Source: Pseudanabaena sp. Chao 1811
GTDB taxonomy: Bacteria > Cyanobacteriota > Cyanobacteriia > Pseudanabaenales > Pseudanabaenaceae
Length of the DNA stretch: 64,000 nt
NCBI RefSeq assembly: GCF_027942295.1
Contig: NZ_CP101416.1
Coordinates: forward strand, 3,334,501 to 3,398,500
Direction of reading: 5' to 3'
The notes below the pieces were generated by a model. It saw only the letters and a program-made list of their open reading frames with translations, had not been told where the DNA came from and ran no database searches. Positions 56,550 to 63,171 of the stretch are shown piece after piece. The stretch's first letter is position 1, and each line of letters starts with the position of its first letter. A program made the translations under genes and the position numbers.

Positions 56550-58817
56550 TTAATCTGGATTAGGAGGACACCAGAAGAGATTTTGACTGGATATACCTAG
56601 AGATTCCAAAATCTCTTTCATCTTTTGGGTACATTCCATCCAATAGTCGAGACTGTCATACATCCAGTCAGGACTAAAGTGTAAATCATAATGGAGTAAG
56701 TATGGGATATCCGTAAACTCATCGGATGTTTGCTTGGAAATGAGTAAGACTCGGAAGGGCTTGCCCTCACATTTAATTTTGAGCTTATCAATTAAATCGA
56801 GAACATAGTCGCGATTAGTGACACCAGTGCGAATGAAGAGAATTTCATCACTATGTTTGAGCGTATATAAAAACCTCTTGGCACGGGCAGAATAGCGCAC
56901 GCGCATCCGTTCATAGATCGGCTGCATATTGTTAACTGGATCATCGGAATCTTCAACTTCATGACCAAAAGATAGTCCTGACCATTTGGAATGATAAACA
57001 CGACGATCAGTAGGATTGTAATGTAGGTAGGCAGGATTCCACATATCCTGAAAGTCATTGACTACTAAATCAGTAACATCACCAAGATTTGTAGAACGCG
57101 CTAAGTCAAAAGGAAATGCGGGCCCATCATATTCCATTTTATACAGCAGCATTCTCGCCGCACAACGATCGCCTAGGGGCAAAATAGCAATTCGATGTAG
57201 CTCTGACAATTTGCACTTGTATTTAAGTAGCATCGTTGATTTGGCAGGGGCTTTGACCCGACTCTCCAAACCGCGATCGCCAATAATCATCGTCCGAAAA
57301 GGTATGTCAGGATGAATAGGATCGTTATATACCGCCGCAGGCATCGCGGCTAGAGCCGTGCGAATTTCTTTCCACATGGGATGGATATTATAGGCTTCGT
57401 TAGATTCGTTGATAATCCGAATTGTGCGATCGCCTTCTTTAAGAATCCCTAAATATCCATCATAGTAAAGAATCTCAGAGTTTTGAGGGGCAAAGAATTT
57501 CAAGGCGGAGCAGTATTGTAAATCCATATCAACAGGAATTGCTACCGTATTCTCTATTGAACCATTCACCCCAACTGTCAATAATGGCAAGGTTCCCAAC
57601 TCGTCATTTTTGGAAATATAGGTTCCCGAAATCAGTTCCGCTTTACGTTTTAAAGCTGCTTGCAATTCATTCCAAGTAGGAGTGATATTATAGGGATGCT
57701 CAGATTTATTGATAATTCGTAGGGTTTGTGCTTCAGGACAGGCAAATACTTTAAAACCATACTTATCTTCGTAAATAGAAATCTCTTCTATTTTTTGACT
57801 CTGCAATAAGGATTTCTGATCCTGTAAACGATGCTCACGAGTGATTTTGAATAGATCAAGATTGATGGATTCAAACATCAGACGATGCCCTGCGGTATTA
57901 GGATGAGCCACATCTAAAGATATGTTATGCTTCCATCCACCATAGCCATTATCGATCGCATCTAACCAATTAAGAATGGGAACTTCCCAAGTTAACATCC
58001 GATGATGGGTATCACGCAACAGCCAGTTATGCTCTGGGTTGTAATCACCATTAGGATATAGACCCCCAATAATAGGAATTGCTCCCAAATCTTGAGTCAT
58101 TTTCACTAGTTGCTGTAGCCCACTCTCAAAGCGTCGTTGAACTGCGCGGCGATCATGGGGACGGCAATAGGCTAGTCCTTCATTACCGAGGGAAAGCGCA
58201 ATAATCACAATATCTGGTTGTTCTGGGACAACCACAGAAGCAAAGCGCTCGATAGTGTTACTGACAGTTGCACCTAATTGTGAGCGGTTGACCAGTTGAT
58301 GACCATATTTTTCCTGTAACGCTTCGCCTAGCTGACTTGCCCAGCCCCTAAGTAACCAAGCACTACATCCCATCGCCACCGAACTGCCAAGAACTAAGAC
58401 TTTAATCCCACTCGCTGGATTTTGAAGTTTAGGAACTGTAGCGATCGCATTCTCTAGATAGCCGTAGGGGAAAGCATGAATATAACTAAATGCACCATCA
58501 TCAATAACAACTGTAGAGCTTGTCGAATTAATATATTCTTGTTCAATAGGAACCCATCGATTTTCACCACGTTCAGATTCCCATTGCACTTTTCCATTGG
58601 CAGCAATCCGCACATACTTATACTCAATCCGATCTAGTGGATTCGGTAAGCCTAAAGGGTCAATTGCGACTTCTACAGACCAAATAGGATAGCGATCGCT
58701 AGATGTGTTTAGAGATAGATATTTATTAACATCCCACAATCCTAATTGAGGAACTGAACCAACTATACCAATCATTTCCCCATCTTGGGTGGGAGCCTTT
58801 ACCTGAAATCGATACAT
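56550..58817 (-). CDS. CBM20-SGNH hydrolase-tandem repeat-DUF1796 fusion protein
   Basis: A 755-residue cytosolic-looking protein with no signal peptide in this start. Order: a CBM20 starch-binding domain (about 1-105: VGSVPQLGLWDVN, YKYVRIAANGKVQWESERGENR in pieces); an SGNH/GDSL-type domain (about 130-330) with VLVLGSSVAMG (Ser block), SLGNEGLAYCRPHD and the D-x-x-H in LDVAHPNTAGH; two tandem copies of an unknown domain (TLRIINKSEHPYNITPTW and TIRIINESNEAYNIHPMW, about 360-555); and a C-terminal DUF1796 domain (putative cysteine-peptidase-like: PLGDRCAARMLLYKM, PAFPFDLARST, HYDLHFSPDW). The ATG at 58817 begins CBM20 directly; an ATG at 58886 would add 23 residues. Confidence 0.78.
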   Translation of the reverse strand: MYRFQVKAPTQDGEMIGIVGSVPQLGLWDVNKYLSLNTSSDRYPIWSVEVAIDPLGLPNPLDRIEYKYVRIAANGKVQWESERGENRWVPIEQEYINSTSSTVVIDDGAFSYIHAFPYGYLENAIATVPKLQNPASGIKVLVLGSSVAMGCSAWLLRGWASQLGEALQEKYGHQLVNRSQLGATVSNTIERFASVVVPEQPDIVIIALSLGNEGLAYCRPHDRRAVQRRFESGLQQLVKMTQDLGAIPIIGGLYPNGDYNPEHNWLLRDTHHRMLTWEVPILNWLDAIDNGYGGWKHNISLDVAHPNTAGHRLMFESINLDLFKITREHRLQDQKSLLQSQKIEEISIYEDKYGFKVFACPEAQTLRIINKSEHPYNITPTWNELQAALKRKAELISGTYISKNDELGTLPLLTVGVNGSIENTVAIPVDMDLQYCSALKFFAPQNSEILYYDGYLGILKEGDRTIRIINESNEAYNIHPMWKEIRTALAAMPAAVYNDPIHPDIPFRTMIIGDRGLESRVKAPAKSTMLLKYKCKLSELHRIAILPLGDRCAARMLLYKMEYDGPAFPFDLARSTNLGDVTDLVVNDFQDMWNPAYLHYNPTDRRVYHSKWSGLSFGHEVEDSDDPVNNMQPIYERMRVRYSARAKRFLYTLKHSDEILFIRTGVTNRDYVLDLIDKLKIKCEGKPFRVLLISKQTSDEFTDIPYLLHYDLHFSPDWMYDSLDYWMECTQKMKEILESLGISSQNLFWCPPNPD

Positions 58818-62668: not shown

Positions 62669-62896
62669 ATGACTAAATTACTTGAAAAAGCCTTTAAAGA
62701 AGCCCAGAAGCTCTCAAATAATCTTCAAGATGAAATTGCGCGGCAATTGCTGGAAGATATTCAGAATGAGTTGAATTGGCAAAAAACTTTATCTGATCCA
62801 GACATTGATCTAGGTATATTTCAACAAATGGCTCAAGCAGCTATAAAAGATGATGATGCGGGTGAAACCGAAGAGAAGGGCTTTGGGCAGGAATGA
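62669..62896 (+). CDS. Putative type II antitoxin
   Basis: A 75-residue acidic protein directly before a ParE/RelE-like toxin gene, overlapping it by four bases (ATGA). N-terminal helix TKLLEKAFKEAQKLSNNLQDEIARQLLEDI is the pattern of cyanobacterial small antitoxins of this class. The C-terminal acidic tail (DDDAGETEEKG) may bind the toxin. The assignment rests on context and this pattern. Confidence 0.7.
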   Translation: MTKLLEKAFKEAQKLSNNLQDEIARQLLEDIQNELNWQKTLSDPDIDLGIFQQMAQAAIKDDDAGETEEKGFGQE

Positions 62897-63171
62897 TGAG
62901 ATCTTCTCGAACCAAAGATTTTCAGAAATTATTTGTAAAGCTACCTCAACACGTCAAAGAAACTGCCAAAAAAAACTACGAACTCTGGAAAGATAATTCA
63001 TCTCATCCGAGCCTAGAGTTTAAAGAAATTATCCATAATCAAAATATTTGGTCTGTTAGAGTGGGTATTGGCTGGAGGGCTTTAGGTGTTATCAAATCAC
63101 AAGAAGAAAAAATCGTATGGTTTTGGATAGGTTCACACGCTGAATATGACAATATTTTAAAAAAGAAATGA
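62893..63171 (+). CDS. ParE/RelE-like toxin
   Basis: A 92-residue basic protein with the compact RelE/ParE fold pattern: SRTKDFQKLFVKLPQHVKETAKKNYELW, the core strand WSVRVGIGWRALGVI and the last strand WFWIGSHAEYDNIL. Similar small toxins of cyanobacteria have this GWRALG...WFWIGSHAEYD ending. Whether it cleaves mRNA or targets gyrase is not predictable. It is coupled to the upstream antitoxin by ATGATGA overlap, supporting a type II toxin-antitoxin operon. Confidence 0.8.
   Translation: MMRSSRTKDFQKLFVKLPQHVKETAKKNYELWKDNSSHPSLEFKEIIHNQNIWSVRVGIGWRALGVIKSQEEKIVWFWIGSHAEYDNILKKK

Follow-up and report, generated by a model that had tools for sequence, protein, structure and literature searches.

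The window analysed here, a stretch of 64,000 nucleotides from Pseudanabaena sp. Chao 1811, contains a gene whose product appears to join a starch-binding domain to an SGNH hydrolase, a duplicated domain and a DUF1796 domain. Are these parts real, do they form a stable unit, does the unit have a genetic partner, and what might it do?

One gene encodes five parts in a fixed order

The gene spans positions 56550 to 58817 on the minus strand, stop codon (56550–56552) included, and encodes 755 amino acids from a start at 58817 that is common to related loci. An alternative in-frame ATG would give a 778-residue product. The shorter form is supported by the M-Y-R-F-Q-type start, which is where the match begins in related loci, the exception being L045, where it runs from residue 2. 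AlphaFold2 gave a mean pLDDT of 84.4 for the whole fusion and 90.5 for residues 341–755.

The first-pass annotation had read the protein as CBM20, SGNH, two repeats and DUF1796, in that order and in the cytosol. The order was borne out: a domain search supported both CBM20 and DUF1796, the Pfam cut-offs were passed and the duplication proved to be real. All three Pfam domains were matched at 0.001 in 33/33 members of alignment A1, which comprises the window protein and 32 of the 52 loci recovered in a scan of a genome collection. The cytosolic location is also supported, because CBM20 begins at residue 1–3, too close to the N terminus for a signal peptide to precede it. Elsewhere in the window, a 92-aa open reading frame (62893–63171) looks by eye like a candidate RelE/ParE-type toxin.

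A starch-binding domain and two possibly amylase-like repeats

The CBM20 domain (residues 3–94; 58536–58811, minus strand) matched PF00686 with 68.7 bits against a cut-off of 23.3. It aligns with the starch-binding domain of glucoamylase (1ac0), W28 and W79 falling on tryptophans of that domain. Both residues are invariant in the 33 aligned proteins, and K67 is found in 28/33; we take these three to be the binding-site 1 residues. The domain would be expected to dock the protein on alpha-glucan or glycogen.

The two repeats lie on the minus strand at 57492–57791 (repeat 1, residues 343–442) and 57195–57491 (repeat 2, residues 443–541), and are supported by hhalign and VIA. Comparison of their profiles by hhalign gave a probability of 98.3 and a score of 78.7, with 29% identity over 70 columns, while none of 50 column-shuffled controls exceeded 17.1. 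The order of strands and helix is the same in the two modelled repeats. Repeat 1 resembled residues 406–496 of cyclodextrin glucanotransferase (CGTase; VIA Z 8.1, rmsd 3.1, 88 residues) and repeat 2 resembled residues 398–475 of Thermus TTHA1563 (Z 7.2, rmsd 2.2, 77 residues), Z scores that are about the level quoted for models without a clear match. GH13-type enzymes occupied most of the 50 VIA rows for the model of residues 341–755, and the matched stretches of CGTase and TTHA1563 are presumably GH13 domain C. The models thus suggest, with moderate Z scores, two beta sandwiches that resemble amylase domain C. If they are domain C, the non-catalytic mass of the fusion would be mostly borrowed from amylases.

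The SGNH domain resembles polysaccharide esterases

The SGNH hydrolase domain (residues 139–326; 57840–58403, minus strand) is supported by Pfam, alignment with TesA, conservation and VIA. Residues 142–313 matched Lipase_GDSL_2 (PF13472) with 51.6 bits against a cut-off of 32.9. S146, G182, N212, D302 and H305, the Ser, Gly, Asn and Asp-x-x-His of the superfamily, are each invariant (33/33), and S146 aligns to the serine of the GDS motif in TesA. From the superfamily, S146 would be the nucleophile, with D302/H305, and G182 and N212 would form the oxyanion hole. Block I reads GSSV, not GDSL, and membership of the classical GDSL lipases, as defined by the literal motif, was rejected.

When the whole model was used, residues 94–326 were closest to carbohydrate esterases. 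The top five VIA rows were acetyl-xylan and polyvinyl-alcohol esterases (Z 20.6–18.6), among them PbeAcXE (7tog/7toh; Z 20.6, rmsd 2.4, 196 residues) and a polyvinyl alcohol esterase (Z 18.7, rmsd 2.9, 192 residues). TesA matched at 2.3e-6 by sequence and with Z 17.3 by fold. The fold is thus shared with the SGNH carbohydrate esterases PbeAcXE and Axe2, its best fold matches; those enzymes act on other polysaccharides, whereas the fusion is cytosolic and carries CBM20, two amylase domain C-like repeats and DUF1796. PbeAcXE presumably has a beta domain ahead of its SGNH domain; the aligned range of its chain starts at residue 118 or later.

DUF1796 carries conserved cysteine and histidine residues

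The DUF1796 domain forms the C-terminal part of the protein (residues 542–755; 56553–57194, minus strand). Residues 546–694 matched PF08795 with 35.6 bits against a cut-off of 23. Its cysteine and histidine are invariant in 33/33 fusion members. In a set of 14 members, comprising eight fusions and six DUF1796 sequences encoded elsewhere (five as stand-alone genes, one at the beginning of a 566-aa open reading frame in L133), C552 and D571 were present in 14/14 and H619 in 12/14, the remaining two having the histidine one residue further on.

Pfam describes DUF1796 as putative papain-like. The list of 50 VIA rows for residues 341–755 contained no papain-like chain, but that list is filled by repeat 1 and therefore says nothing about how DUF1796 folds. 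A profile search returned two matches (best E 0.33), neither of them a convincing solved relative, and a full-text literature search for DUF1796 returned no paper. The DUF1796 part of the model, folded within the larger model, had a weak likeness to the SGNH enzymes Est2A, a CE2 esterase and SsfX3 (VIA Z 6.3–6.7, 127–142 residues), so the papain-like label may need re-examination. The idea that SGNH and DUF1796 are a tandem copy found no backing in sequence, as their hhalign score was 15.3 and 50 shuffles reached up to 22.5.

Outside the cyanobacterial class, DUF1796 occurs mostly in open frames of ∼150–300 aa. Eight such loci outside the fusion, of the many listed, were inspected (L127–L134; families f43 and f51). 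By Pfam, a glycosyltransferase adjoins DUF1796 at L128, with a match at cut-off, and is fused to it at L132. Several of the other loci have neighbours that look by eye like glycosyltransferases or sugar aminotransferases. Elsewhere, then, the family can adjoin sugar enzymes.

The fusion is retained or lost mostly whole

Scanning the genome collection with the window protein, a search that reaches close relatives only, recovered 52 distinct fusion loci. All had cyanobacterial titles and matched nearly the whole query; the nearest named loci, mostly Pseudanabaena, were 72–84% identical to the window protein. In a set of 58 relatives, own genome included, 34 had a full-length fusion, one with an internal TAA (G002), and one more fusion lay on two contigs, cut at the contig ends (G055); G042 gave a weak SGNH match only. 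In a sample of the phylum, the full-length fusion was found in 25/386 genomes. A broken copy, in two frames with a stop, was present in G186, and short remnants in G161 and G210; the other 36 genomes with a match had weak single-domain matches only. Further short remnants were all that was found in G513, G531, G535 and G544, and the fusion of L053 was not open in a single frame.

Within the cyanobacterial class, DUF1796 (detected at 0.001) was confined to the 26 genomes carrying the fusion, full-length or broken, plus G404, in which the open frame measures 267 aa. This survey of homologues found the same domain order throughout, and an intact separate-gene version was absent among the genomes searched. 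On these counts, we regard the fusion as an old unit of fixed order, retained or lost mostly whole.

An acyl-CoA ligase often accompanies the fusion

ORF clustering was applied to 78 loci. Some of these come from the same genome more than once, and many offer only ∼1.5 kb of flank or end early. A gene for an AMP-forming ligase lay near the fusion, 46–4381 bases off, in 26/78 loci, corresponding to 25 distinct places (L073 and L051 are the same place). It was the sole conserved neighbour outside close kin, and in Oscillatoria-type loci it was often downstream on the same strand. Candidates for a third partner gene were rejected, the next clusters reaching no more than 12 loci, from close relatives, and no more than 10 in a second clustering. 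That second clustering had the ligase in 42 loci, a count that is no evidence of linkage because 16 loci had been fetched around ligases on purpose.

Two types of ligase were distinguished. The best solved relatives of type A are MatB malonyl-CoA synthetases (E ∼1e-74 to 3e-68). Three type A ligases scored 361, 385 and 389 bits against NCBIfam NF005702 (malonyl-CoA synthase), and the type B ligase carried by L051/L073 in place of type A scored 538 bits; all fall below the cut-off of 558. The partner is therefore best described as a MatB-like AMP-forming acyl-CoA ligase, the cut-off not making it a malonyl-CoA synthase, and malonate as its acid is a guess from family resemblance. By a motif, it presumably also resembles ACSF3/AAE13. 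A search of the open-licence PMC literature on the MatB active site returned no paper.

In the phylum sample, type A (at 1e-120) was present in 18/386 genomes, and 18/18 carriers have the fusion, full or broken. Conversely, 8/26 fusion genomes were without type A; four of these belong to the window's genus, and the other four (G038, G039, G174 and G370) gave no match even at 1e-40. Family f28, sampled with 164 genomes, is that of Calothrix sp. NIES-4105, because one member (G507) holds a ligase 100% identical to that of L039. Here the ligase was found in 41/41 genomes with a full-length fusion, and 34/41 pairs were ≤10 kb apart (30–6948 bases; 32 convergent, two on the same strand). The remaining seven pairs were 87–654 kb apart or on other contigs, with both genes still present. 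Two of the f28 ligases (G495 and G196) have one internal stop each and another is split (G523); in G186, where the fusion is broken, the ligase also has a stop.

Three of the 44 f28 ligases were without the fusion, all in genus g187. These genomes (G458, G483 and G511; loci L142 and L143) carry type A ligases of 67–70% identity, one of them partial, and gave no fusion match at 1e-10. A ligase ortholog was absent from all five f28 genomes in which only remnants of the fusion were left; the best matches there had 31–35% identity, and among the matches listed no ligase remnant stood out from adenylation domains. This co-loss is weaker evidence than it looks, because a single deletion can take out two linked genes. 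Fisher's test gave p 4e-25 for the phylum sample and 2e-35 for f28, values that ignore kinship and come from samples sharing genomes. Three genera (g45, g160 and g177) each include some genomes that carry the pair and others in which a fusion remnant is left and the ligase is missing, a pattern that supports the tie beyond kinship.

The ligase tie in the window's own lineage

Twenty-one fusion-bearing genomes were searched with the type A ligase at 1e-40. Six gave a match of 55–76% identity over most of the query, and seven, all from the window's genus, gave matches of at most 40% identity. No match was obtained at this threshold in eight: the four phylum-sample genomes named above and G026, G030 (77% complete), G033 and G036 from the relatives set. 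Thus, some lineages either do without the ligase or have another enzyme in its place.

In the window's genus, type A was not found in the nine of 26 genomes where it was sought (G000, G004, G006, G009, G017, G019, G020, G021 and G023). The fusion was present in 23/26 genomes and type B in 22/26, all 26 having been searched. G009 has the fusion and lacks type B, and neither gene was found in G005 (82% complete), G015 (76%) or G017 (99%). At L051, type B lies 200 bases from the fusion and is convergent with it; in the window's genome, which is without type A, it lies ∼410 kb away. That type B is the ortholog of type A was rejected: a tree, in which one ORF (g187_L143) was wrong and two long rows were flagged, separated type B and four unrelated paralogs from the type A rows (98/93), type B itself being supported at 100/99. 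Type B could at most substitute for type A in function, and a partner ligase for the window's own fusion is suggestive only.

What the fusion might do

The first-pass annotation's order, duplication and cytosolic place have stood. Its further suggestion, that the protein could act on an acylated glucan, finds indirect backing in the conserved SGNH residues, the esterase-fold neighbours and the co-occurring acyl-CoA ligase. Acylated glycogen is not known to us from cyanobacteria, and the literature searched contained no report of these organisms acylating a storage glucan. That some acyl chemistry takes place on a glucan, in either direction, nevertheless seems to us somewhat probable.

Our preferred but tentative reading, which we hold with less than even confidence, is that the fusion works in the cytosol as a carbohydrate acyl-esterase bound to storage alpha-glucan, with the ligase re-activating the acid. 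CBM20, perhaps aided by the two domain C-like sandwiches, would dock the protein on glycogen; the SGNH domain would hydrolyse O-acyl esters on the glucan; and the MatB-like ligase, of which the co-occurrence is observed, would convert the released short acid back to acyl-CoA. DUF1796 may contribute a second Cys/His site. We favour removal of esters over their addition on two grounds: the folds nearest to the SGNH domain belong to polysaccharide esterases, and free acid is what MatB-type enzymes use.

The chief alternative is the opposite direction, in which the SGNH or cysteine domain would move acyl groups from ligase-made acyl-CoA onto alpha-glucan; it appears unlikely. An enzyme that makes acyl-CoA would suit the role of donor supply; if the acid is malonate, however, no ligase is needed for this, as malonyl-CoA arises anyway from acetyl-CoA carboxylase, and the esterase folds closest to the SGNH domain also argue against it. 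The analogy is with the mycobacterial octanoyltransferase OctT (Rv2418c), in which we know of no CBM20 or DUF1796. A passage of PMC4555173 describes OctT as an SGNH-family enzyme without the full GDSL motif, as is the GSSV-bearing fusion, that acylates early intermediates of MGLP, an intracellular alpha-1,4-glucan; with PatB, it illustrates there that SGNH proteins may be acyltransferases rather than esterases. Both directions could also operate in one storage-glucan acylation cycle, with the ligase supplying or recovering acyl-CoA and DUF1796 and SGNH writing and erasing the ester in opposite directions; its role would be like that of starch phosphorylation in plants, and we consider it very improbable.

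Alternatively, CBM20 might only position a lipase or thioesterase on glycogen, the SGNH domain acting on lipids or acyl-CoA as TesA does. The TesA match in both sequence and fold would fit, as would the human putative glycerophosphodiester phosphodiesterase 5 (2z0b; GPCPD1/GDE5) among the Foldseek matches to CBM20, a non-amylase enzyme whose CBM20 is presumably N-terminal. Yet alpha-glucan is the target suggested by CBM20 and, with less certainty, by both repeats, and polysaccharide esterases outrank TesA by fold, which makes this quite improbable. GWD3 is a further non-amylase enzyme with an N-terminal CBM20, according to a section of PMC6243121, and both it and GPCPD1/GDE5 differ from the fusion in their catalytic domains. 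Least credible to us is a processing factor in which DUF1796 is a cysteine peptidase of glucan-bound proteins and SGNH is minor or structural. The annotation's other proposal, modification of a glucan-bound protein, would rest on the putative papain-like label of DUF1796, with which the conserved C552 and H619 are compatible; it would explain neither the intact SGNH site nor the association with an acyl-CoA ligase, and some DUF1796 genes elsewhere adjoin or are fused to glycosyltransferases.

The separate parts are each known; neither the five-part architecture nor its link with an acyl-CoA ligase was encountered in the open-licence PMC literature searched. The fusion is thus a conserved and apparently unstudied cyanobacterial protein, and together with the ligase it makes a testable two-gene unit, from which DUF1796 could gain its first function. 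If the glucan is acylated, the turnover of storage sugar in these phototrophs would come under an additional, so far undescribed layer of control, with a direct connection between acyl-CoA metabolism and glycogen.
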